This document shows positions 22,975-33,365 of a DNA stretch of 33,365 nt, piece by piece (within the stretch, counting starts at the first letter, position 1; each line of letters opens with the position of its first letter). Location: assembly GCA_028571455.1 (NCBI GenBank), contig JAPVVG010000109.1, forward strand, positions 1 through 33,365. Direction: 5' to 3'. The translations under genes and the position numbers were made by a program. The notes beneath the pieces were generated by a model that ran no database searches, was not told the DNA's origin, and saw only the letters and a list, made by a program, of their open reading frames with translations. The DNA comes from Desulfobacteraceae bacterium. Lineage in GTDB: Bacteria > Desulfobacterota > Desulfobacteria > Desulfobacterales > ETH-SRB1.

Positions 22975-22998
22975 CATAATAAAATGGAGGTTATAATC

Positions 22999-23787
22999 AT
23001 GGATAGGTTTTATAAAAATCTAGGAGTAAGGATTAAAAAGATAAGAGAAAAAATAGACTTATCTCAAGAAGCATTGGCTAGAAAGTTGGGAATAAGCAGA
23101 GTCGCTATTTCACAAATAGAAACCGGGAATAGAAAAATTAGTGCGGAAGAGATAGTTAAGCTTGCTAAAACATTTAATATTCCTACGGATGTTCTGTTAG
23201 ATGTTAAAAAAGATATTGAGGTTATATTTGAAAAAGCCATGAAGAAATCGGGGAAAAAACAAGAACTTAGAATTAGTGTTCCTCAACGGAATCTGCAAAA
23301 ATTCAAGGAGATATTAATTTATATTCTTGAGAAAGTTGGGTCTAAACCGAATGTAGGAGAAACAGTTCTGTATAAACTTCTTTATTTCATAGATTTTAAT
23401 TTTTATGAGAAGTATGAAGAGCAATTAATAGGAGCAACCTATATAAAAAACCATCATGGACCAACACCTAAAGAATTCATAAAGGTTGTAAAGGAAATGG
23501 AGGGTAAAGAATTAGTAAAGGTGACGGATAAATATTTTCAATATCCTCAGACTAAATATTTGCCTTTAAGAAAATCCGATCTTACTCAGTTCAAAGCACA
23601 CGAAAAAGAAATCATTGATGATGTTTTAAATAATTTGTCAAATATGAATGCTTCTGAGATCAGCGAGTACTCCCACAACGATGTTCCCTGGCAAACTACC
23701 GAGGATGGAGAAATCATTGAATATGAAGCAGTATTTTATCGAACTTTGCCTTATTCAGTGAGGAATTATAGTGAAGAAAGTCTTTAA
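22999..23787 (+). CDS. Panacea (DUF4065/SocA-like) antitoxin with N-terminal XRE HTH
   Basis: Putative antitoxin of a PanAT toxin-antitoxin pair, about 262 residues. An XRE-type helix-turn-helix occupies about 5-60 (IDLSQEALARKLGISRVAIS, QIETGNRK). The Panacea domain spans about 100-240: ETVLYKLLYFIDFNFYEKYE, IGATYIKNHHGPTPKEF and a C-terminal SEYSHNDVPWQ. Panacea domains are known to neutralise many unrelated toxins. An ATG at 22984 is possible, but the second ATG (22999) is preferred: GGAGG lies 8 bases before it. A sigma-70-like promoter lies just upstream. AT-rich coding sequence unlike the backbone suggests transfer. Confidence 0.85.
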   Translation: MDRFYKNLGVRIKKIREKIDLSQEALARKLGISRVAISQIETGNRKISAEEIVKLAKTFNIPTDVLLDVKKDIEVIFEKAMKKSGKKQELRISVPQRNLQKFKEILIYILEKVGSKPNVGETVLYKLLYFIDFNFYEKYEEQLIGATYIKNHHGPTPKEFIKVVKEMEGKELVKVTDKYFQYPQTKYLPLRKSDLTQFKAHEKEIIDDVLNNLSNMNASEISEYSHNDVPWQTTEDGEIIEYEAVFYRTLPYSVRNYSEESL

Positions 23788-24142
23788 GGAAATACGGAAA
23801 CTTACTGAATTTGAAAAAGATTTCAAGAAACTGGCAAAAAGATTTAAAACTCTTGATGATGATATCGAAACTTTTATTAATAAACAGCTCAAACTTACTC
23901 ATAAACTGGGAATTGACAATAAAGGAGTTGTTCCTATCTCCGGGTTGGGAATTGAAATTCCTAAGATATATAAAGCAAAAAAATTTGCTTGCAAAGCTCT
24001 AAAAGGGCGTGGAGGAATGAGTGGCATAAGAATCATATATGCATATTATGAAAAAGAAGATGTTATTGAATTTATAGAGATTTATTTTAAAGGCGATAAG
24101 GCAGACGAGGACAAAAAACGAATTATAAAAAATTATAGCTAA
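23771..24142 (+). CDS. RelE/ParE-superfamily-like toxin paired with the Panacea antitoxin
   Basis: A 123-residue basic protein starting at GTG, with AGGA six bases upstream, overlapping the antitoxin by 17 bp. N-terminal helices (LTEFEKDFKKLAKRFKTLDD) precede strands KIYKAKKFACKAL and RIIYAYYEKEDVIEFIEIYF, the pattern of RelE/HigB-like toxins, with GGMSGIRII as the central basic strand. Such toxins cut mRNA on the ribosome; the exact target here is unknown. Antitoxin-first order with overlap fits a type II system autoregulated by the HTH of the first gene. Confidence 0.75.
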   Translation: MKKVFKEIRKLTEFEKDFKKLAKRFKTLDDDIETFINKQLKLTHKLGIDNKGVVPISGLGIEIPKIYKAKKFACKALKGRGGMSGIRIIYAYYEKEDVIEFIEIYFKGDKADEDKKRIIKNYS

Positions 24143-24258
24143 AAGAGAAGACTAAAATGGGAAAGAAAATAACGACTTTTATTGAGTTATTCTTAATAAA
24201 TATAGAATCTGCTCAATATATAAGTTATGTTTGAATAATTTAAAAATAGGAGGAGTCA

Positions 24259-24663
24259 ATGGATATCAACGTCCCATACATGCCGTCGGTTAAAAACCTG
24301 CACGTTATTCTTGATAAAGTACAACACGCCGCAGTTCCAGATGCCTTTGGATATGATTTCTTATGTGATCTTGGGTTTTCTAGTTCGAATGATAGGTCTG
24401 TTGTCAAGATGTTGAAGTATCTTGGCTTTTTAGACACTTCCGGCAGACCACAAACAAGCTATCGAGAATTTGTGAATCCCTCAAAGACAAAAGTGATTTT
24501 AGCCGAAAGACTTCGTGCTGCATATGACGATCTCTATGTAAGCAATAAAAAGGCTCACGAGATGACAGTTGAGCAACTAAAGGGATGGTTTAAAAGCAAA
24601 ACAGGGAAAGGTGATGCGGTTGCAATAAAGATTGCAACAACATTTAAAACTTTGGCTGATTAA
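24259..24663 (+). CDS. DUF5343-like protein
   Basis: A 134-residue soluble protein with excellent Shine-Dalgarno (GGAGGAG). The opening NVPYMPSVKNLHVILDKVQH and the FLCDLGFSSSNDRSVVKMLK, YLGFLD stretch (about 33-57) resemble DUF5343, a winged-helix-like family of unknown function often found in accessory and defence regions. The remainder (about 75-134) is helical with a Lys-rich KGWFKSKTGKG. No enzymatic motif. It stands alone between the Panacea pair and the REP cluster; a DNA-binding regulator is one option. Confidence 0.55.
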   Translation: MDINVPYMPSVKNLHVILDKVQHAAVPDAFGYDFLCDLGFSSSNDRSVVKMLKYLGFLDTSGRPQTSYREFVNPSKTKVILAERLRAAYDDLYVSNKKAHEMTVEQLKGWFKSKTGKGDAVAIKIATTFKTLAD

Positions 24664-24670
24664 AAAAAAT

Positions 24671-24769
24671 GGGGTCAAGTCTGCCTTTGACCCTTAATAA
24701 TTTTGAGCAAGGGTCAACCGTAGACTTGACCCCATTTTTTGAGCAAGGGTCAACCGTAGACTTGACCCC
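24671..24769. repeat. REP palindrome copy 1 (63 bp) plus a duplicated right half
   Basis: Full copy 24671-24733, starting ggggtcaagtctgcctttga and ending agacttgacccc, with its right half repeated directly at 24739-24769. Four mismatches in the stem (gcct against accg side) distinguish copies 1 and 2 from copies 3 and 4. The loop reads aataattttgagcaa, the inverse orientation of copies 3-5. Open frames here are artefacts. Confidence 0.9.
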
Positions 24770-24842
24770 ATTTTCACGTTTTATAATTGCTTGGGTTAGA
24801 TGGTGATATGCCTGATAGGGAATAATGAAGAAAAGTAACATA

Positions 24843-24883
24843 TTTTTTGCACAATAACGTAATGTGTGTTACTGTGCAAAAAA
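24843..24883. repeat. Strong hairpin between REP copies 1 and 2
   Basis: TTTTTTGCACA (24843-24853) is the exact inverse of TGTGCAAAAAA (24873-24883), and the pairing extends through TAAC/GTTA with one mismatch, leaving a 9-nt loop. Not shaped like a rho-independent terminator (A-run, not T-run, follows on +). It could be a small palindromic element or protein-binding site. Confidence 0.7.
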
Positions 24884-24908
24884 CACTTTAACATTAAGAA
24901 AAAAAAAT

Positions 24909-24971
24909 GGGGTCAAGTCTGCCTTTGACCCTTAATAATTTTGAGCAAGGGTCAACCGTAGACTTGACCCC
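24909..24971. repeat. REP palindrome copy 2 (63 bp)
   Basis: Same sequence and orientation as copy 1, including the four stem mismatches, so one copy is a recent duplicate of the other. Flanked by A-runs on the left and attttc on the right. Confidence 0.92.
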
Positions 24972-25269
24972 ATTTTCATTTTACAAAAGTAGATCCCCTA
25001 TTCTTTTTTGGAATTGGGAAATCTTGGGAGGAGAGGGGGGGGAATCTTGAGGACGTTGTTGACTATGTTGAATAACTTTCCATGTAGAATAGGAGGGGAA
25101 TAATTTGGGATGTCCGTGACATTTCAACATTCTATCAGGAGCAAGACCTTCGGGGACATAATTAACTGTGTTGCATAATTGTAAGGCCAATAGAAACAAT
25201 TCTACGAATTTAACAATGTCCACTCTGGCTTCCCAAAGGTCTCGAGGCTGGACAACGTATACTCAATTG
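24972..25269. other. Unassigned sequence upstream of the deaminase gene
   Basis: Minus-strand open frame from about 25260 to 24981 (80 residues from a GTG at 25223) includes LFLLALQLCNTVNYVPEGL and KCHGHPKLFPSYSTWKV; I do not recognise it and it may be a remnant of a mobile element. On the plus strand this is where an AvcI-like RNA would lie if the deaminase follows the AvcID plan. No convincing promoter seen. Confidence 0.35.
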
Positions 25270-25353: not shown

Positions 25354-27177
25354 ATGAAAAGACAAGACGAATTCTTGATACTAGGATTTACAGGTGCCTT
25401 TTCTAGCGGATGCACAACTGCGTCACAGTTCTTCTTAAATGGTTTGAGTCGAGCCAAGAAAGACTTCATTGCCGCTAAGTCAAAGACCAACTCAGACATT
25501 GCAAACTTCTACAAACAAAGAAGAAACGAGATTGACCGTAAGGAAGCCAAGAAAGAAAGGACTAAGAAAATACTGAAACTCGCCAGGAAAAGGCAGATTA
25601 TCAACGCATTAGAGAAAGTCGAAGACGTACCGTTTTTCTACATTTCAATGACGGACATAATGCACAGTTTGGTGATAGAATACTGCGTTACAAACGGGAC
25701 GAAGCTATCACCTGTTCCTGATCGTTTTAAAGATGTCGTGGATTTAGTTTTGCAGTGGTGCAAAGATGAGGGACTGGATAGCGAGAGCCTTATCCAAATA
25801 GGGAATGCGTTAAGGGTGCGTGATATTGATAAAGGCAATGATGAAAAGGTGTTTGTTTACTTGAAAAAACTAAAATCATTTCGAAAGAGAATGAATGACT
25901 TATACAGGGACAACTCATTTAACTTGTTTGACACGATGCAAACAGTGGGAAATAACCTTCGGAAGTGCGGAAAACCATTTGTTGATGAAAAGGAACCATT
26001 CGGGGATCCTACATACTTGGACATTCTTTCAGAAAGAGCCGGTGAGGTCCTCAAATTCCATAGAAAGTGGAAGAAACGCCAAAATTCCCCTGATCATAGA
26101 ACGTACTATTTAATCGAGTGTCTAAGGAATCCGTCTGAGGTGGACTATTTCCGAAAGCGATTCCATGAATTCTACTTGTTTTCTGTCTACGCGGACGAAG
26201 GCACGAGGCATGAGAGGGCAAGAAAGAATTACAAATTGTCTGAAGATGAGTGCGTTGCAATAGACAATGTGGATCAGGGCGGTGATTACCTTGGCGAGCC
26301 ATACAAGCAAAACGTCAAACGTTGTGTGTACCTAGCCGACATCGCTCTCACAAACTGCAAGGAGTTTCACGATTTGCACGAGGAACTCCTCAGGTACTAT
26401 GTCCTGATAAAACATCCAGGCTGCATAAAACCAACTCACACGGAACGGAACATGAATTTGGCTTATTCGATGAGTCTAAACTCTACGTGTATATGTCGAC
26501 AGGTAGGTGCTGTCATAATAAACAAGAGCTTCGTGGTTGGTGCAGGATGGAATGATACAGGCGGAGGGCGTCTCGGTTGCGTTTATCGACTGCGAAGGGA
26601 CGTTGTTGATACGAAGAACGAGGAGTTCCCTATATGTTCAGAAAGGGACCATGGACTGTTTCAGGAAATTATTGTTGGCCCAGATCGGAATCTTGATCAC
26701 AGCTTTTGTTACAAAGACGAGATTGGCGAGTTGAAAAAGGAGATTGCGAGGAGGAAGGGGACTATAAGTGACGGTTGTAAGGAAGTGCTTGAGGATGTTG
26801 AAACACGCTCATTGCAATATTGCAGGGCATTGCATGCCGAAGAAAATGCAATACTTCAGACAGCCAAGATTGGCGGCAGACGGCTTCACGGTTCGACCTT
26901 GTATACGACCACCTTTCCTTGTGAGCTGTGTGCTAAGAAGATCTTACAGGTAGATATCAAGAGGGTCGTATACTGTGAGCCCTATCCCAAAAGTGTGTCT
27001 ATGGACGTATTTTTTAAAGAGACAATGGCAAAAGTCGAAATCGTCCCTTTCGAAGGGGTTAAGTCACCTAGCTTCTTCAGACTGTTCAAACCTCCTTTCG
27101 ATATAAAGGATTTGCAGCAACTTGAAGCGATCGAAACGGGACTTGGCGCAAAGGCTGGTCATGGACAAGGCAGTTAA
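25354..27177 (+). CDS. AvcD-type anti-phage dCTP/dCMP deaminase with N-terminal P-loop domain
   Basis: A 607-residue two-domain protein. Residues 10-24 (LGFTGAFSSGCTTAS) form a P-loop-like turn in which the Walker A lysine is replaced by Cys20; the domain continues to about 350 with long charged helices. The C-terminal zinc cytidine/deoxycytidylate deaminase domain (about 362-570) has RQVGAVIINKSF, His494-Ala-Glu496 in HAEENAI and the zinc ligands Cys523 and Cys526 in PCELC; an insert with Cys residues (about 405-490) separates the halves. Proteins with this architecture deplete deoxycytidine nucleotides on phage infection. The ATG has GGAG seven bases upstream. Located between REP palindromes, with a strong hairpin before it. 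Confidence 0.85.
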   Translation: MKRQDEFLILGFTGAFSSGCTTASQFFLNGLSRAKKDFIAAKSKTNSDIANFYKQRRNEIDRKEAKKERTKKILKLARKRQIINALEKVEDVPFFYISMTDIMHSLVIEYCVTNGTKLSPVPDRFKDVVDLVLQWCKDEGLDSESLIQIGNALRVRDIDKGNDEKVFVYLKKLKSFRKRMNDLYRDNSFNLFDTMQTVGNNLRKCGKPFVDEKEPFGDPTYLDILSERAGEVLKFHRKWKKRQNSPDHRTYYLIECLRNPSEVDYFRKRFHEFYLFSVYADEGTRHERARKNYKLSEDECVAIDNVDQGGDYLGEPYKQNVKRCVYLADIALTNCKEFHDLHEELLRYYVLIKHPGCIKPTHTERNMNLAYSMSLNSTCICRQVGAVIINKSFVVGAGWNDTGGGRLGCVYRLRRDVVDTKNEEFPICSERDHGLFQEIIVGPDRNLDHSFCYKDEIGELKKEIARRKGTISDGCKEVLEDVETRSLQYCRALHAEENAILQTAKIGGRRLHGSTLYTTTFPCELCAKKILQVDIKRVVYCEPYPKSVSMDVFFKETMAKVEIVPFEGVKSPSFFRLFKPPFDIKDLQQLEAIETGLGAKAGHGQGS

Positions 27178-27209
27178 TGGAGCGCACCTGGGGGACGTCC
27201 TTGACGAAT

Positions 27210-27295
27210 GGGGTCAAGTCTGCCTTTGGAATGGGGTCAAGTCTGCCTTTGACCCTTGCTCAAAATTATTAAGGGTCAAAGGCAGACTTGACCCC
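27210..27295. repeat. REP palindrome copy 3 with a partial left duplicate
   Basis: Partial copy 27210-27228 then full copy 27233-27295. The 25-bp arms are perfectly complementary around a 13-nt loop (gctcaaaattatt). Flanks gacgaat on the left and attct on the right match those of copy 4 and extend similarity to about 18 bp of left flank. Lies between the deaminase stop and the start of the GHKL-SIR2 cassette. Confidence 0.92.
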
Positions 27296-27347
27296 ATTCT
27301 CTCGGCTATTAAGCCGTCTAATCTATGTTAGCCACAGGAATTTCACG

Positions 27348-29039
27348 ATGATGCATGCTAATTTTAAGGACACTTGGCCGCCATCTTTCACACTTGATCA
27401 AGAAAAGATCCTCAACCTCTTGACTGGCGACCACTTCTATTCCAATCCGAGTGCAGCGTTGAGAGAGGCAGTGCTAAATGCGATCGATGCTGTAAACAGG
27501 CGGCGAAGGGTAGAACCTGCGTTTTTGCCCGAGATTACCGTGACCTTCAACCGCGATGATTTGACTCTAACGGTGACCGACAACGGTGTGGGAATGAGCC
27601 GTCTTGATGTTAGTGCGCTATTCACAAAAGTTGGTGCGTCAGCTGCTACAGCTGAGGTTAATAAGGAGTCGGTTGGCGAGTTTGGAATTGGTGTCATCAG
27701 TTACTTCATGGCAGCAGACGCCTTTACGCTTCAAACCAATGACGGCAAAGGCGAGCCTGTCGGTTTGTTGTTCAACAGAGAAATGCTGGCCGGCGGCGGT
27801 GCTTCTGAAGTGCCCCCTACACAGGAATCTCAGGGCACAGTGGTTACAATCCAGATACGAGACTCCGAAACCTTTGAACTTCTCCTCGACAAATTCCCTT
27901 ACTGGTGTCGTGATGTTGAAGGGCTATCTGCCCGGGTTTTGCCGGAAGACCGAAATTTGGGTCAAGGCGGTTCAAACCGAGCGCACAACAGTGTGGTGGT
28001 AGAACTTCCTAAATGGGTGGAGCGGGCTCACTTGGCCCCTGTGACCGATCCTACCGGCTGGGATGCAATGACCGGCGTTTCGACCGTTGCGGTCCTCTAT
28101 CGAGGAGTCTTCGTTCAGGAATTTGACGTTAAGAAGGCGTGGGGTATCGAAGGATCGATCGATGTAGACCCTAAGCACTTCAAGCCTCGGCTCAACCGTG
28201 AAGGCTTCGTTGAGGGTGCGTTTCAGGCTGAAGTGGAAAGCTTTCTCCAAACGTGCCATCCCACCATTTTGGTGAGCATGGCGGCCCGCCTTACTGCCGC
28301 GGTAAAAGCGGGAACCCTTACAAAGTGGACTGAAAAGCGATGGGCGAGCCTTTGGCTTTCGGTCCCTCGTGATAAGCCATATGTTGCCGCTGTGGAAGCA
28401 TGGGATGCAGTTTTCAGGTATCTCCCGGCTTTCGAGCGCGCGGTTGGTAATAAATGGGAAGGTATCTCACTTGACCAAATGAAGACCCTTGGAGGAGAGA
28501 TATATCTGGCACCGCTAACGGAAGAAAAGCCCAACGATGTGGTATTGGCGGCCCTACGTTTTCTTCGGAATACAGGCCATAACGTTATCCGCGGCATTAG
28601 CAAAGATCGGTCATGGATGAGGTTCGCGCCTGCTACGTTCGGAACCACTGCGGACCTAATCTCAAAGGTGTTTTCCAGCGAACTGCCGCCCCTGATACCC
28701 ATTGCTCCGAAGGCGGAGAAGATTCTCGCAGAAATCACACGGATCGCTCCACTCTTTACTGGACCACCACCGGTGGACCTCGTGAACATAGGAAAAGATA
28801 GTCCGCCTGCATTGAGGCTGAAGAGTCGCTTGATTATTAATACAGATCATCCTGCAGGCGAGGCAATAGTAAAGGATGCCCTAAGCGAGAATGGCGGACC
28901 ACTATCACTAATTACGATCACTGCGCGTCACGCATACCAACAGCTTACAGAGGTCGCTGCAGCGGTTCGGCAAATTACCGCCGAGCCGGAGGTCCTCAGC
29001 CCCATTCGACGTCGGTATATTCGGAGCTATTTGTCATGA
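27348..29039 (+). CDS. GHKL (HSP90-like) ATPase, partner of SIR2
   Basis: About 563 residues starting at 27348; a longer frame from 27288 begins inside a REP palindrome and is rejected. The GHKL ATP-binding fold is clear: N box REAVLNAIDAVN with Glu40, Asn44, Asp47; G1 box TDNGVGMS (77-84); ALFTKVGAS lid; G2 box GEFGIGVISYF (110-120). The remainder follows the HSP90/MutL-like transducer pattern, without the C-terminal dimerisation motif of bacterial HtpG, and the sequence is far from HtpG. It overlaps the SIR2 gene by ATGA. Probably a sensor or activator ATPase in an NAD-depleting defence pair (inference from context). GC-richer than the Panacea genes. Confidence 0.85.
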   Translation: MMHANFKDTWPPSFTLDQEKILNLLTGDHFYSNPSAALREAVLNAIDAVNRRRRVEPAFLPEITVTFNRDDLTLTVTDNGVGMSRLDVSALFTKVGASAATAEVNKESVGEFGIGVISYFMAADAFTLQTNDGKGEPVGLLFNREMLAGGGASEVPPTQESQGTVVTIQIRDSETFELLLDKFPYWCRDVEGLSARVLPEDRNLGQGGSNRAHNSVVVELPKWVERAHLAPVTDPTGWDAMTGVSTVAVLYRGVFVQEFDVKKAWGIEGSIDVDPKHFKPRLNREGFVEGAFQAEVESFLQTCHPTILVSMAARLTAAVKAGTLTKWTEKRWASLWLSVPRDKPYVAAVEAWDAVFRYLPAFERAVGNKWEGISLDQMKTLGGEIYLAPLTEEKPNDVVLAALRFLRNTGHNVIRGISKDRSWMRFAPATFGTTADLISKVFSSELPPLIPIAPKAEKILAEITRIAPLFTGPPPVDLVNIGKDSPPALRLKSRLIINTDHPAGEAIVKDALSENGGPLSLITITARHAYQQLTEVAAAVRQITAEPEVLSPIRRRYIRSYLS

Positions 29040-30304
29040 AGGTCTTACTTTTTTCTGGTGCCGGTACATCCATGGAGTTGGGCGTGCCAGGAATGATTGG
29101 CATGGGGGAAGAGTTTCTGGATCATGTGAAACAGTGGGACATAGAGCCAGATCTGGTTCAAAAGATCATGGAAGGTTCGCTAGACGTAGAACATCTTATT
29201 GAGGCTCTTGATCGTATATGCACCGCCCGACCGTCTTTAGAAACGATTGGCCAAGACACGGTACCCCTTGAGAGAGTGAATAAGATACGCGCTGAGGTCG
29301 AGTGGTTTGTTCAGCATGCGGCGGAACGTGTAGTGGGCAAGGATGCCCAGCTAATGTGGGGTTCGGTACTGCGGGCCACTACTTCTGTGGATCTCACACT
29401 AGTGACCACAAACTACGACCGAGCAATTGAACTAGCTTCCAACGCTGAACAAGTACGCCTTGATGACGGTTTTGGCCAATTTGACCAAGGTGAAACAGCC
29501 ACCTGGGTCGGGTTTGATCCGAAGGCAAGCCATCTGCAGCTCGTAAAATTGCATGGGTCGACTGATTGGTACGCTGAAGGCCAGTTAGCCAGCCCTACCA
29601 AGCTTAGGCATCCGATGCCTCTCTTTGGGCGCGCAGCATTGCACTTGGCTAGTGGCCAAAAGCTCGGGTCAGCTCTTGTTCTACCATCGAGGGAGAAGCT
29701 ACTCACGCATGACCCATACCCACGTCTCTCGCAGACCTTTCTCAACGCGGCTGATTCTTGCGACATGGCCATTTTTGTTGGGTCATCATTGCGTGATCAC
29801 CATATCCGCAGTGCCGCTAAGACGACCTCGAATCGAGTACCTGTATTCATCGTTAACCCAGATGGAGACGTCTATGGGATAGATAATGCCCACCCTTTCA
29901 AGCAATTTGCCAGCACCTTTCTAATTGCTACCTTACCGAACGCTTTAATGTCACCTAATCCGATCGCCGCCTTAGAGGCGTCAGTCATAGTCAAATCCAA
30001 CGAAGACAAGGGAATCCTGGTCCCATTAAGACAGGCACTTGATACTGATGCCCCAGCTGACCTCCGATGTCGAGCGCTCGAAGAATTGGATGATATGGAA
30101 GTTACACTTGACGCGTACATATTGCGTCAATTCATAGCCGATGCTGATCCAAAAATTGCACGATATTCCTTAGGTCTCCTCTCACTCTCGGCTGATAGAG
30201 ATACTCTTATTGAGGAGATTAACGCTTTGCCTAATGCCAATGAGAATGCGTTCAGCGATGATCTGCTACTATTGCGCGACATGGTCAAGAAACGGTTAAA
30301 TTGA
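29036..30304 (+). CDS. SIR2-like NAD-hydrolase domain protein
   Basis: A 422-residue protein with a SIR2/sirtuin-fold N-terminal domain: LLFSGAGTSMELGVPG (4-19) binds NAD; TTNYDRAIE (124-132), the catalytic-type His173 in KLHGSTDW, VGSSLRD (248-254) and VNPDGD complete the set. There are no zinc-finger cysteines as in deacetylases, matching the defence SIR2 group that degrades NAD during infection. The C-terminal 90-100 residues (ALEELDDMEVTLDAYILRQF onward) look like short helical HEAT-like repeats. Translationally coupled to the GHKL gene and followed by an attC-like site. Confidence 0.85.
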   Translation: MKVLLFSGAGTSMELGVPGMIGMGEEFLDHVKQWDIEPDLVQKIMEGSLDVEHLIEALDRICTARPSLETIGQDTVPLERVNKIRAEVEWFVQHAAERVVGKDAQLMWGSVLRATTSVDLTLVTTNYDRAIELASNAEQVRLDDGFGQFDQGETATWVGFDPKASHLQLVKLHGSTDWYAEGQLASPTKLRHPMPLFGRAALHLASGQKLGSALVLPSREKLLTHDPYPRLSQTFLNAADSCDMAIFVGSSLRDHHIRSAAKTTSNRVPVFIVNPDGDVYGIDNAHPFKQFASTFLIATLPNALMSPNPIAALEASVIVKSNEDKGILVPLRQALDTDAPADLRCRALEELDDMEVTLDAYILRQFIADADPKIARYSLGLLSLSADRDTLIEEINALPNANENAFSDDLLLLRDMVKKRLN

Positions 30305-30331
30305 TGCCATTATACATTTTCTGCAACGGCG

Positions 30332-30408
30332 GGCTAACAACAGCTTCAACTCGGACTGGCTTTTCCGCTTGCGCTTTAAAGCCAGCCGGTTAAGCGAAGC
30401 GTTATGGC
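30332..30408 (+). other. attC-like recombination site A
   Basis: R'' GGCTAAC (30332-30338) and R' G/TTATGG (30401-30407) bound an imperfect palindrome. GCTTC (30343-30347) pairs with GAAGC (30396-30400); CGGaCTGGCTTT (30352-30363) pairs with AAAGCCAGCCG (30378-30388), leaving one extrahelical A at 30355, the hallmark that orients attC for integrase. The next ATG begins one base after GTT. Confidence 0.82.
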
Positions 30409-30976
30409 AAAAATTATGAGATACGATGAGCACGAGATCGAAAGGCTGTATCAAGAAAACTTGTCTGCTGCCCGACAGCTACTTGCTTCCTTACCTGTGG
30501 CAGAAGGAAGAGAACCGACTACCAAAGGATTAAATGGATGGGTTTACGAGCAGACAATTTGCCATTGCTTATCACAAGAACTGAAAGCATTGGGGATATT
30601 GCCCAGCATAGCAGAGCAAGTGTCCCTCTATGGAAGGGTCAAGATTGACTTACTGGTAGGCAGAGTGGCTATTGAAATAAAGGCACTGGGCTCTTTCGGC
30701 GATGATGCTAAGAAATACAGTAGGTACCGAACCAAAGTAGAACAAAAGGGATGGGTATATTGCTATTTGACGCGCGGTGAGACGTACCGTCCCTATCGCT
30801 TGGCAACCGAAGAAGCCCTTGGAAAAGAACGAGCTTTCTTCCTGGACATACAAGGAGATTGGGAAAGATTTGTGAAAGAAGTCCTGAAAAGTTACGAAGG
30901 AAAGCCATAACAAGTCAAGCCGACCGCGGGAACGTTCGGCGGTTTTCATCAAAGCCACCGGCGCGGCGGCTTACTT
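30402..30976 (+). mobile_element. Integron-type cassette 2 carrying the PD-(D/E)XK gene
   Basis: Left boundary G/TTATGGC is exactly complementary to GCCATAAC (30904-30911) at the end of its gene. About 575 bp with one ORF that fills the cassette, its start codon overlapping the boundary sequence, a common cassette layout. Confidence 0.72.
30404..30910 (+). CDS. PD-(D/E)XK nuclease-fold protein
   Basis: A 168-residue protein in a single-gene cassette. The restriction-endonuclease-like core is suggested by YEQTICHCLSQEL (helix with Glu49), then KIDLLVGRVAIEIKALG with Asp82 and Glu91-x-Lys93, the D...ExK catalytic triad on adjacent strands. The following GWVYCYLTRGETYRPY fits the next strand. 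The target (DNA or RNA, phage or self) is unknown, and no methylase or partner gene is present in the cassette. No Shine-Dalgarno is possible from within the cassette because the ATG starts two bases after its boundary. Confidence 0.65.
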   Translation: MAKIMRYDEHEIERLYQENLSAARQLLASLPVAEGREPTTKGLNGWVYEQTICHCLSQELKALGILPSIAEQVSLYGRVKIDLLVGRVAIEIKALGSFGDDAKKYSRYRTKVEQKGWVYCYLTRGETYRPYRLATEEALGKERAFFLDIQGDWERFVKEVLKSYEGKP

Positions 30977-30983
30977 TTGGGAC
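30904..30983 (+). other. attC-like recombination site B
   Basis: R'' GCCATAAC (30904-30911); AAGCCGaCCGC (30917-30927) pairs with GCGGCGGCTT (30963-30972) with an extrahelical A at 30923; a further AGT/ACT pair lies outside. The right core reads TTTGGGAC instead of a canonical GTTRRRY, so it may be mutated. REP copy 4 begins 13 bases later. Confidence 0.68.
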
Positions 30984-30995
30984 ACTTGGACGAAT

Positions 30996-31058
30996 GGGGT
31001 CAAGTCTGCCTTTGACCCTTGCTCAAAATTATTAAGGGTCAAAGGCAGACTTGACCCC
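30996..31058. repeat. REP palindrome copy 4 (63 bp)
   Basis: Perfect 25-bp arms, loop gctcaaaattatt, flanks gacgaat / attct as for copy 3. It sits between attC site B and the partial attC before the HEPN cassette. Confidence 0.93.
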
Positions 31059-31070
31059 ATTCTTCTCAGA

Positions 31071-31137
31071 CAGACAAAAGCGGCGCTTCCCTTCGGTCGC
31101 CCCGCTTTTGTCTGCCGGTGATTCGCGCAGTTAGCTT
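31071..31137 (+). other. Partial attC-like site before the HEPN cassette
   Basis: A perfect 13-bp stem CAGACAAAAGCGG (31071-31083) / CCGCTTTTGTCTG (31102-31114) is followed by ccggtgattcgcgca and the core G/TTAGCTT (31130-31137). The matching left outer arm and R'' box are missing; REP copy 4 is found in their place. Confidence 0.6.
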
Positions 31138-32028
31138 AAGAGGATTAAATATGTATGACGAAAAAGTTGCTGGATATAAAAAAATCGCGACTCGATTTAA
31201 GAATTTCAATAAAGAGCTTCGGGATATTTGGGAAAATTATAATATAATGATTTTCTATATACCAAAACTTCATAATTTAGTTAAAAGAAAGAATCTACCT
31301 CCTCTTAGTTTTGCCCCTCTTTTTTCAGAGATTCAAAAAACAATAAAAATTGATGACACCTTAGGAGCGTTTTCGAGCTTGCGACTCAAATCAAGCCCAA
31401 GAAGTTCACTTGTTGAATCTGTTATTACTTTCGAAGATTTCTTGTCATATATTATTTATACTGTTTATAGCGATTATCCAGGAAAACTACTTTCCGTTGA
31501 TGAAGGAAATCAAATTGAATCATCAGATAGAAAATCGAAACTTCTAAATACAATCATTCATAGCGAGAATAAAGAAGAAATAATCGACAAATTAATTGAA
31601 GAAAAATCAAGATCAATATTTTATGGTAATATAGTCGATTTTTTTATTAAGGATCGTGCAAAGCTCGAATTCAGGGATCATTTCAAAGTAGAATTGAGCG
31701 ATCCAATAAAAAAAAACTTAGCTGAAATTTTAGCTAGAAGAAATATAATTGTGCATAATAATGGTAGAATTGATAGAAAATACATCAGAGAAACAAATAG
31801 CTCGGAACCTCTGGGGAAAAAAATAAAAATTGATGAACAATATTTGAAGTATTCAATTATCACGCTTCAAGGTATAGCTGCACATGCAGGTGGGCAAGTC
31901 ATAAAATCAATATACAAAAAGCCTATACTTGGAAAAATAAAATATATTATGAATAGTTACGAAAACCATCTAAAAGCTAACAAAGCTAATGCAGCCGACG
32001 CATAAAGCCGCGCGGCTGATTAGAGTCG
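31131..32028 (+). mobile_element. Integron-type cassette 3 carrying the HEPN gene
   Basis: Left boundary G/TTAGCTT is exactly complementary to AAGCTAAC (31974-31981), the R'' box at the end of the HEPN gene. 898 bp, one ORF. Confidence 0.72.
31151..32005 (+). CDS. HEPN-domain protein (putative ribonuclease)
   Basis: About 284 residues starting at 31151, where GAGGA lies six bases upstream; a GTG at 31118 would start inside the attC stem and is rejected. An all-helical protein with the HEPN signature near residues 190-205: LAEILARRNIIVHNNGRID, that is Arg197-Asn-x3-His202 (Rx4H). Such proteins are often RNases activated in anti-phage or toxin-antitoxin systems. No nucleotidyltransferase partner is present. 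The last residues (ANKANAADA) are encoded by the attC arm. Strongly AT-rich, unlike the adjacent GC-rich cassettes, showing independent origin. Confidence 0.65.
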   Translation: MYDEKVAGYKKIATRFKNFNKELRDIWENYNIMIFYIPKLHNLVKRKNLPPLSFAPLFSEIQKTIKIDDTLGAFSSLRLKSSPRSSLVESVITFEDFLSYIIYTVYSDYPGKLLSVDEGNQIESSDRKSKLLNTIIHSENKEEIIDKLIEEKSRSIFYGNIVDFFIKDRAKLEFRDHFKVELSDPIKKNLAEILARRNIIVHNNGRIDRKYIRETNSSEPLGKKIKIDEQYLKYSIITLQGIAAHAGGQVIKSIYKKPILGKIKYIMNSYENHLKANKANAADA

Positions 32029-32035
32029 TTAAGAG
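31974..32035 (+). other. attC-like recombination site C
   Basis: R'' AAGCTAAC (31974-31981); CTAATgCAGCCGaCGC pairs with GCGCGGCTGATTAG leaving two extrahelical bases (G and A) on one side; right core G/TTAAGAG from 32028. The left half lies inside the end of the HEPN frame. Confidence 0.78.
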
Positions 32036-32079
32036 GCTTGTTTTACATTTTGAAAATATAAAGACTCTGAGGATGCATT

Positions 32080-32361
32080 ATGGCAAAAGCAAAAGATACT
32101 TATAAATATTATTTCAAGGTCGGGAACAAAATCGTCTACGGCGGAATAACAAACGATTTGGAACGTAGGGAACAAGAGCACCAACAGAAAAGGTCTAAAG
32201 GTCATATTTACAAAGTAGGCCGTCGCACAACTGATGAGGCCGCCAGAGAATGGGAAAAGGATATGATTAGCAAGAGGGTAGTGAAATCACCACCCATAAG
32301 CGGTTCGCGAAAGAAAATCGAATATAAGAAAGCAGCACATACAGGAATGAAGCAAAGTTAG
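32080..32361 (+). CDS. GIY-YIG-like small protein
   Basis: A 93-residue basic protein with GAGGA six bases before the ATG. The N-terminal half resembles the GIY-YIG nuclease core: YYFKVGNKIVYGGITNDLER, with the tyrosines, the GGIT turn and the following Arg-rich helix EQEHQQKRSKGH. A conserved Glu (AREWEKDMI) could be the metal ligand. It lacks a second DNA-binding domain. First gene after attC site C, in what may be a fourth cassette whose own end was not found. A nicking role in defence or mobility is possible, not shown. Confidence 0.6.
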   Translation: MAKAKDTYKYYFKVGNKIVYGGITNDLERREQEHQQKRSKGHIYKVGRRTTDEAAREWEKDMISKRVVKSPPISGSRKKIEYKKAAHTGMKQS

Positions 32362-32405
32362 ATTGCAAATTATCAACTTGGAAAGTACATGAGGAGTCTA
32401 AATCT

Positions 32406-33041
32406 TTGAGCAGGTCTGTCTATAACGATAACGTCTTCATAAATTGCCCGTTTGATAAGCAATATGAGCCAATATTCCACGCCATTATATTCGCGATATT
32501 CGATTGTGGATTTGTCCCTCGCTGCACTCTTGAAGAGGATGACGCGAGCCAAATTAGAATAGAAAAGATTTACAGCATCATTAACGCCTGCCGGTATAGT
32601 ATCCATGACATCTCTCGAACCGAACTTGACTCTAAAAACAACCTCCCTCGCTTCAATATGCCTCTGGAATTGGGGATGTTACTTTCGGCAAAAAAATTTG
32701 GAAGTGGAAAGCATAACAAAAAGTCATGCCTTATTCTTGACAAAAAGGCCTATCGGTATCAGAAGTTCATATCAGATATCTCAGGACAGGATATAAGCGC
32801 ACACAACAATTCCACTAAAAATGCAATCAGAATAGTTCGAGACTGGCTTAGGGGTAAATCCAGGCGTACTACTCTGCCAGATGGGGACGTCATTTGGAAG
32901 CGTTACCAGAGGTTCACGAAGACCTTACCCAGAATGTGTAAAACTCTGCAATTTAATCAAAATAAACTGATATATAAGGACTATGTTCATTTGGTATACG
33001 AATGGCTTGAAGAATTAACATGGGATTCAAGTTACTTTTAA
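32406..33041 (+). CDS. TIR/deoxyribosyltransferase-like fold protein
   Basis: A 211-residue protein starting at TTG, chosen because GAGGAG lies nine bases upstream and homologous-looking sequence begins at once (NDNVFINCPFD). The pattern of an FINCPFDKQY strand-turn, then RIEKIYSIINACRYSIHDIS and RFNMPLELGMLLSAKKFG with Glu88, fits the TIR/nucleoside 2-deoxyribosyltransferase superfamily, in which the Glu of an ELG motif attacks the N-glycosidic bond (NAD or nucleosides). I know the family only as widespread hypothetical proteins. The C-terminal 90 residues are helical. Lies 44 bp after the GIY-YIG gene and may be cotranscribed. Confidence 0.5.
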   Translation: MSRSVYNDNVFINCPFDKQYEPIFHAIIFAIFDCGFVPRCTLEEDDASQIRIEKIYSIINACRYSIHDISRTELDSKNNLPRFNMPLELGMLLSAKKFGSGKHNKKSCLILDKKAYRYQKFISDISGQDISAHNNSTKNAIRIVRDWLRGKSRRTTLPDGDVIWKRYQRFTKTLPRMCKTLQFNQNKLIYKDYVHLVYEWLEELTWDSSYF

Positions 33042-33152
33042 TGAGGACCAAGGACAAAGAATGGGGGTCGGGCCACAGCAACATATTGAGATAATATATA
33101 AAACGTTAAAATCTTGCGTTAAATAAGGCCTTAAATGGCCATTTTTAGGAAA

Positions 33153-33210
33153 GGGGTCAAGTCTGCCTTTGACCCTTGCTCAAAATTATTAAGGGTCAAA
33201 GGCAGACCCC
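33153..33210. repeat. REP palindrome copy 5 (58 bp, variant right end)
   Basis: Left arm as in copies 3 and 4; the right arm ends ggcagacccc, lacking the ttga stretch. Flanks taggaaa and ttttcct differ from other copies. Upstream (33042-33152) there is no gene, only the palindrome AAATGGCCATTT near 33133-33144; downstream a small CTGC/GCAG hairpin near 33241-33254. Confidence 0.9.
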
Positions 33211-33288
33211 TTTTCCTTTTTTGCTTTTTTCTGAAGGCCATCTGCAAAGGCAGATACTATCCGAGAACAGTAGCAGGAATGGGTACTT

Positions 33289-33365
33289 ATGAATGATCGG
33301 GATATCTTTTATGACACGGCCAAGTTATCACGCCCTGAGCAGGAGATCGTGCTGCGGAAGGCGCA
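33289..33365 (+). CDS. Start of an unidentified gene (3' truncated by window edge)
   Basis: An open frame from ATG 33289 runs off the end: MNDRDIFYDTAKLSRPEQEI and five more residues. Hydrophilic, helix-prone; not recognised. A weak AGGA lies about 12 bases upstream. A second frame two codons in (ATG 33293) is also open but its composition is less protein-like. Confidence 0.4.
   Translation, partial: MNDRDIFYDTAKLSRPEQEIVLRKA

Follow-up and report, generated by a model that had tools for sequence, protein, structure and literature searches.

Clusters of attC sites lacking integron integrases (CALINs) roughly equal complete integrons in number (2961 and 2760, respectively, according to PMC9024848). 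Among the several origins suggested for them is loss of the integrase gene intI (PMC8618304). Apart from those of class 1 integrons, attI sites have received little description (PMC9024848). Desulfobacterota are among the recognised integron hosts (PMC8618304, PMC9668308), a deltaproteobacterial clade of intI has been described (PMC2426708), as has an attC model for Deltaproteobacteria (PMC8352920), and 2025 work presents Vibrio and mobile integrons as carriers of antiphage genes (via PMC12444791). Since integrons of Desulfobacterota and CALINs have both been described already, the kind of system is known. Here we analyse a cassette array that spans 27327-32034 of a 33,365-base contig of a Desulfobacteraceae bacterium (GenBank assembly GCA_028571455.1, contig JAPVVG010000109.1). 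The whole contig, called the window below, is C109 of a 2.93-Mb genome in 267 contigs that is 97.3% complete. We consider it very probable that the array is the remainder of a chromosomal integron that lost intI.

Like a CALIN, which is recognised by at least two attC sites with no intI nearby, the array has two whole attC sites and one damaged attC site, and there is no intI beside it or elsewhere in the contig. It differs in retaining a piece of attI that points to its origin, whereas CALINs, in the available descriptions, are defined and counted by attC alone. With the chromosomal integrons of Deltaproteobacteria and Desulfobacterota it shares its host group, its attC folds and a cargo of unknown proteins, but it lacks intI, and its attI family, defined here by comparison, is not mentioned in the accessible parts of those descriptions. 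An attI fragment heading an array indicates how that array originated, and its motif makes the question of origin countable across genomes; an orphan attI is a direct handle on how intI-less arrays arise. Within the accessible text of the open-licence literature we found neither an attI remnant used as proof of CALIN origin nor a count of orphan attI sites, which does not prove novelty. The array comprises the following features.

27206-27299, no strand assigned: palindromic repeat, a partial copy (27206-27228) followed by a complete one (27229-27299) that ends 3 nt short of the attI remnant
27303-27330, + strand: attI remnant, crossover between 27327 and 27328, recognised by homology to attI upstream of intI in relatives
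27328-30401, + strand: cassette 1 (two genes), start TTAGCC, R'' box GGCTAAC in its own attC, G+C 51.1%
30332-30408, + strand: attC1
30402-31130, + strand: cassette 2, 3' end damaged, start TTATGGC, R'' box GCCATAAC
30904-30982, + strand: left part of attC2 (R'', L'' and L')
30992-31062, no strand assigned: palindromic repeat inside attC2, 71 nt, identical to 27229-27299
31063-31137, + strand: strong hairpin with box GTTAGCTT, possibly the right side of a further attC
31131-32028, + strand: cassette 3, start TTAGCTT, R'' box AAGCTAAC, G+C 31.0%
31975-32034, + strand: attC3
32029-33365, + strand: start of a possible fourth unit

At its head the array is homologous to a place some 400 nt upstream of intI in two relatives. 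All 28 nt of the remnant are identical (28/28) to contig C58 of genome G016, from the same family, and 25 of 26 agree with G002:C40, from the same genus. Similarity ends at G|TTA, where G016 and G002 each carry a different first cassette, so that the first cassettes differ behind the same attI in three genomes. When the 25 bases on either side of G|TTA are compared, the window agrees with G016 at 25 positions before and 6 after, with G002 at 23 before and 4 after, and with the more distant G014:C114 at 19 before and 7 after; G016 and G002 agree with each other at 23 and 9, and four pairs of other attI families agree at 22-25 before and 5-13 after the crossover. The original prediction, which had read this region as an integron-type cassette array, proposed looking for breakpoints in related genomes, and one was thus seen exactly at 27328. 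The other proposed breakpoints (30402, 31131 and 32029) are not comparable because the SIR2-like, nuclease-like and HEPN-like proteins of the cassettes occur in no other sampled genome. Judged as a complete integron, the locus has attI at the head of the array as a 28-nt remnant whose outer part is missing. Given this homology and its divergence at G|TTA, the array most likely derives from an integron that lost intI. Comparing relatives gave several distinct attI families within one bacterial family (upstream of intI, G000-G016), all conserved on the left side with a sharp change at the G|TT crossover. Of 15 arrays from all attI families, 10 have a first-cassette start that corresponds exactly to the R'' of an attC placed by the model, and five do not: G281, G012, G010:C16 (6/7 bases), G061:C27 and G003:C92.

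The G|TT boundaries lie at 27327/8, 30401/2, 31130/1 and 32028/9, which bears out the predicted boundaries and boxes, and the claimed match between the start of each unit and its own R'' is exact in 3 of 3 units: the boxes starting at 30332, 30904 and 31974 are complementary to their unit starts over 7, 8 and 8 bases, respectively. On the + strand of the 33 kb, GGCTAAC, AAGCTAAC and GTTAGCTT occur once each, and GTTAGCC, GTTATGGC and GCCATAAC twice each. The same end rule was examined in nine other arrays (four from the same genome and five from named genomes), leaving out the window, the array on contig C130 and three weak matches (L165:9202, L081:352 and L083:1). There, when each site's last box was set against the opening box of the following site, the four free bases agreed in 11 of 16 adjacent pairs, compared with 0 of 25 within-site pairs and 28 of 702 (4.0%) all against all; a cruder first extraction that included the window had given 12/16, 0/13 and 35/840. 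With the sites of the window placed by hand, agreement in all three units would have a chance of about 6e-5.

Two covariance models were used to locate attC sites. Model R1 began with 85 candidate sites from integron loci outside Desulfobacterota, reduced to 19 non-redundant ones; 3 were set aside for their positions in the integrase region, 16 were aligned and 3 badly aligned ones dropped, giving a model from 13 sites trained without any sequence of the window's own genome. Unfiltered, R1 placed 30917-30980 first in the window (16.0 bits, E 0.042) and 30333-30408 second (13.0 bits, E 0.25), with the third claimed site at rank 6; it thus ranks two claimed sites at the top, but weakly. Model R2 was built from 46 R1 matches from 17 sources, none from the window, and its training set included five sites from other contigs of the same genome (C158, C71, C192, C97 and C130) and one antisense match. 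The top three R2 matches in the window, over 33 kb and both strands, are the claimed sites: 34.6 bits (E 5.9e-6) at 30332-30408, 17.2 bits at 31976-32034 and 17.1 bits at 30917-30976, the next match having 10.6 bits. The first two are full length and the third is partial, covering model positions 17-48 only. Over the genome R2 gave 23 matches at E up to 10 on 16 contigs and 16 at E below 0.02 on 13 contigs; of these 16, five are training sites, and attC1 is the only one from the window. Predicted extrahelical bases in the stems are present as bulged bases in the folded single strands, with z of -3.0 for site 1, -3.3 for site 3 (31974-32035) and -2.9 for the left part of site 2; in the same test the C130 attC, which belongs to an intact integron, reached only -1.5. 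A scan for boxes and hairpins had been tried as an attC finder and was replaced by the covariance models, as it returned excess matches in real and shuffled sequence alike. Rfam searches found nothing in the window at the gathering threshold, and there is no tRNA or tmRNA in it.

The covariance check found attC sites at all three places where they had been claimed, but site 2 is not one intact attC. Only its L''-L' part fits the models; R'' precedes this part with a shortened spacer, and L' is followed by the 71-nt repeat, then the strong hairpin (fold z -4.6 for 31062-31137) and the box GTTAGCTT. R2 has no match at 31063-31137. This arrangement suggests two damaged sites around one repeat, and the junction is therefore probably not a working attC. 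Models, end rule and attI homology all converge on the same coordinates, supporting the original reading of an integron-type cassette array.

The claim that no integrase is visible holds within the window, where the sole match to the integrase model, a protein at 8-814, stays below the cut-off (86 and 66 bits); it does not extend further, as the window contains the attI remnant and integron integrases are encoded elsewhere in the genome. Three proteins exceed the integron-integrase cut-off: one on C130, with 441.6 bits, and the longer matching protein on each of C191 and C219. C130 carries an intact integron, in which the crossover GTTCGAC is followed by a TIR gene (PADLOC TIR-TM, 211 bits), an attC (R1, 22.4 bits, E 0.0023) and a gene for an AriA-like ATPase (127 bits). 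Its IntI has its nearest named relatives, at 87% identity, in metagenome-assembled genomes called Desulfobacterales and Deltaproteobacteria, and the next, at 65-70%, in such genomes labelled as other phyla. These relatives suggest, short of a formal classification, a Desulfobacterota-like metagenome-assembled genome; the anchor motif sought in the attI comparison for C130 was not found in its two nearest named relatives (L070 and L071). Damaged intI copies are found on C41, C153 and C165, and the damaged copies in the genome stand beside attC sites. Across 58 genomes, including this one, the integron-integrase model matched at E up to 1e-60 in 38, and Desulfobacterota appear as recognised hosts in the available text of PMC8618304 and PMC9668308, contrary to the original suggestion that the host is an unusual one.

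A 27-nt motif from this attI, searched with up to 3 mismatches in 389 genomes of the order, was found at 21 places in 18 genomes; the control with the motif written backwards gave zero among the matches listed. The comparison drew on 18 newly retrieved stretches and three from the existing data set. Upstream of the motif there is a full-length integron integrase at 4 of the 21 places and a damaged one at 3 (G012:C366, G010:C16 and G007:C40), and 2 meet a contig end within 500 bases (G361:C345 and G010:C117). At the other 12, the window included, no upstream intI was found within the 1.6 to 27 kb covered (E up to 1e-4), a count that disregards an XerD-like protein at the far end of the window. 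Similarity to the attI region of G016 extends upstream for 24 bases in the window and for 24 to 367 bases in the other eleven intI-less places, unequal lengths that are expected if the intI side was lost separately. R2 gave 13 matches at E up to 1 in the 18 retrieved stretches, 12 of them downstream in motif orientation and one (L264) not; the intI-less places with a downstream attC match are only the window, G073:C309 and G061:C27. Three intI copies lack the middle part and remain in frame from the N terminus to a piece of the C terminus.

L021 about 1064-1249 (G000:C41): internally deleted intI, frame of 61 residues
L258 (G007:C40): internally deleted intI, frame of 116 residues
L254 (G010:C16): internally deleted intI, frame of 97 residues

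We tentatively suggest, as a possibility rather than an expectation, that attI-headed intI-less arrays are common and lasting in this order, with intI being lost, sometimes by in-frame deletion, while attI and the cassettes stay, that one working integrase could serve several such arrays in trans, and that the hairpin repeat preferentially breaks attI and attC. The last of these, the preference of the repeat, rests on two junctions of the window.

Loss of intI has to be weighed against other explanations, of which a misjoined contig survives best and is nevertheless unlikely. On this view the assembly would have made a false join at the 71-nt repeat, and the array in the living cell would still have intI adjoining attI. 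The repeat has two identical copies in the contig and many elsewhere, and the truncated attI begins 3 nt past a copy; however, the integrases that accompany this attI in G002 and G016 share 88% identity, whereas the closest integrase of the window's own genome, that of C130, shares only 55-57% identity with them and has a different attI, no better integrase appears among the matches listed in the 97.3% complete assembly, and other genomes have the motif without intI and without an adjoining repeat. Less probable again is off-target insertion of cassettes by an IntI encoded elsewhere, with never any intI at the array: this is one of the CALIN origins proposed (PMC8618304), and an intact IntI is encoded on C130, but the array is headed by the attI found beside intI in relatives and not by a random target. 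A chance resemblance of unrelated hairpins and boxes is scarcely credible, because although free searches find box pairs with hairpins equally often in shuffled sequence, the R2 ranks, attI homology and end rule all fall at the same coordinates, and the breakpoint at 27328 in two relatives already contradicts it.

Several observations weigh against the cassette-array reading or against its derivation through loss of intI. The attI remnant is short, and on its left it borders a many-copy repeat, where short-read assembly can err. attC2 and attC3 reach only 17 bits and, unlike attC1, have no genome-wide significance (R2 genome-wide E of 5e-4 for attC1 at 34.6 bits, 5.3 for attC3 at 17.2 bits and 5.4 for attC2 at 17.1 bits). 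A free search for units with complementary ends plus a hairpin is uninformative, with 4 on the + strand of 27001-33365, two of them the claimed units, against 2.9 on average and at most 11 in 100 shuffles; the complementary-end test is only as good as the placement of the sites. Among the 12 intI-less motif places, 3 lack a G|TT core (G254, G285 and G324), and those of G254 and G285 are not independent because they have downstream sequence in common; just 2 of the 11 places other than the window have a downstream attC match, some stretches ending soon past the motif. Cassettes 1-3 are common to no relative. At the same chromosomal place in five genomes of the same genus, similarity to the window breaks off at 22.5-22.8 kb and the search returned no attC (best match E 1.1), and there is therefore no empty site.

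If the array is what an integron left on losing intI, circular cassettes would have been inserted by an integron integrase at attI and between attC sites, as the crossover at 27328, the complementary ends and the attC folds suggest. Comparison with relatives points to a later loss of the intI gene and the outer attI, which would have left 28 nt of attI beside the palindromic repeat. Because that repeat also splits attC2, cassettes 2 and 3 could probably be excised only together, between attC1 and attC3. These two sites might still be recombined in trans by an integrase encoded at another locus, for instance the C130 IntI.

The repeat is a REP-like palindrome, AATGGGGTCAAGTCTGCCTTTGACCC, present in the window at 24668-24974, 27206-27299, 30992-31062 and 33149-33207 and on many other contigs of the genome (at least 100 matches); the genome also has 11 Y1-transposase matches. 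Of 34 repeat clusters, 7 have a listed attC match no more than 1 kb away, a count that supports no conclusion because the contigs were selected for repeats or attC sites.

The three cassettes, which differ in G+C (51, 45 and 31%), carry four genes.

27351-29039, + strand: HSP90/GHKL-type ATPase gene (HATPase_c_3, 6e-10; htpG chains, up to 6e-14)
29036-30304, + strand: SIR2-like gene (SIR2_2, 1.5e-7; PADLOC SIR2, 1.1e-17)
30404-30910, + strand: 168-amino-acid nuclease-like gene (motif ID..EIK, read by eye)
31151-32005, + strand: HEPN-like gene (motif RNIIVH, read by eye; DUF3644, 0.0082, and PADLOC RTasHEPN, 0.0064, both weak)

We take ID..EIK to be a PD-(D/E)XK motif and RNIIVH to be a HEPN motif. 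The SIR2-like gene overlaps the ATPase gene by 4 bases, and an alternative upstream ATG for the latter is possible at 27348. Besides the SIR2 and weak HEPN matches, PADLOC gives TmtA for the ATPase (2.9e-4), and the nuclease-like protein has no Pfam, PADLOC or NCBIfam match at E 0.01. The cargo resembles phage-defence or toxin-type effector genes, and a defence role is plausible from these resemblances. As in antiphage-carrying integrons, candidate SIR2-like, TIR, AriA-like and Shedu-like genes are predicted among cassettes of this genome; the window differs from the available accounts of such integrons in that its four genes, SIR2 aside, have weak or no defence matches. In a search covering three of the four cassette proteins, homologues of the nuclease-like and HEPN-like proteins were found only in the genome itself among 340 genomes of the order (E 1e-5 each), and those of the SIR2-like protein only there among 389 genomes of the class (E 1e-15). 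The cassettes add candidate defence genes without relatives in the sampled genomes. Plasmids yielded no relative of the SIR2-like or nuclease-like protein and one of the HEPN-like protein (Aliarcobacter, 38% identity), viral contigs no relative of the SIR2-like or HEPN-like protein, and a sequence search of the PDB no match for the SIR2-like protein; within the literature accessible to us, no paper joining Hsp90, SIR2 and anti-phage was found. The possible fourth unit holds a GIY-YIG-like gene at 32080-32361 (GIY-YIG match 3e-4, below the cut-off) and a 211-amino-acid open reading frame (ORF); it starts with TTAAG, and a closing R'' (CTTAAC) is absent from 32028 to the contig end, 1.3 kb past attC3.

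Elsewhere in the genome, the second cassette of the intact integron (L016 3876-6001, - strand) holds the AriA-like ATPase and a 306-amino-acid partner that has no PADLOC or Pfam match; together they are perhaps a PARIS-type pair in one cassette. On C192, six R2 matches score at least 19 bits, and one ORF is a Shedu-like gene (105 bits). Pfam gave no match at E 0.001 for 8 of ten ORFs taken from other arrays.

Immediately to the left of the array, a deaminase gene at 25354-27177 resembles antiphage dCTP deaminases (PADLOC, 343 bits; NF041025, 300 bits, below its cut-off of 400). It was considered as a further cassette and rejected: the complement GAGCTAAC of its possible start GTTAGCTC is absent from 22501 to the end. 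Further left, at 22984-24663, an HTH/Panacea antitoxin-like gene, a 123-amino-acid ORF and a DUF5343 gene (PADLOC PDC-M34A, 156 bits) stand in a row, possibly a toxin-antitoxin or defence group.

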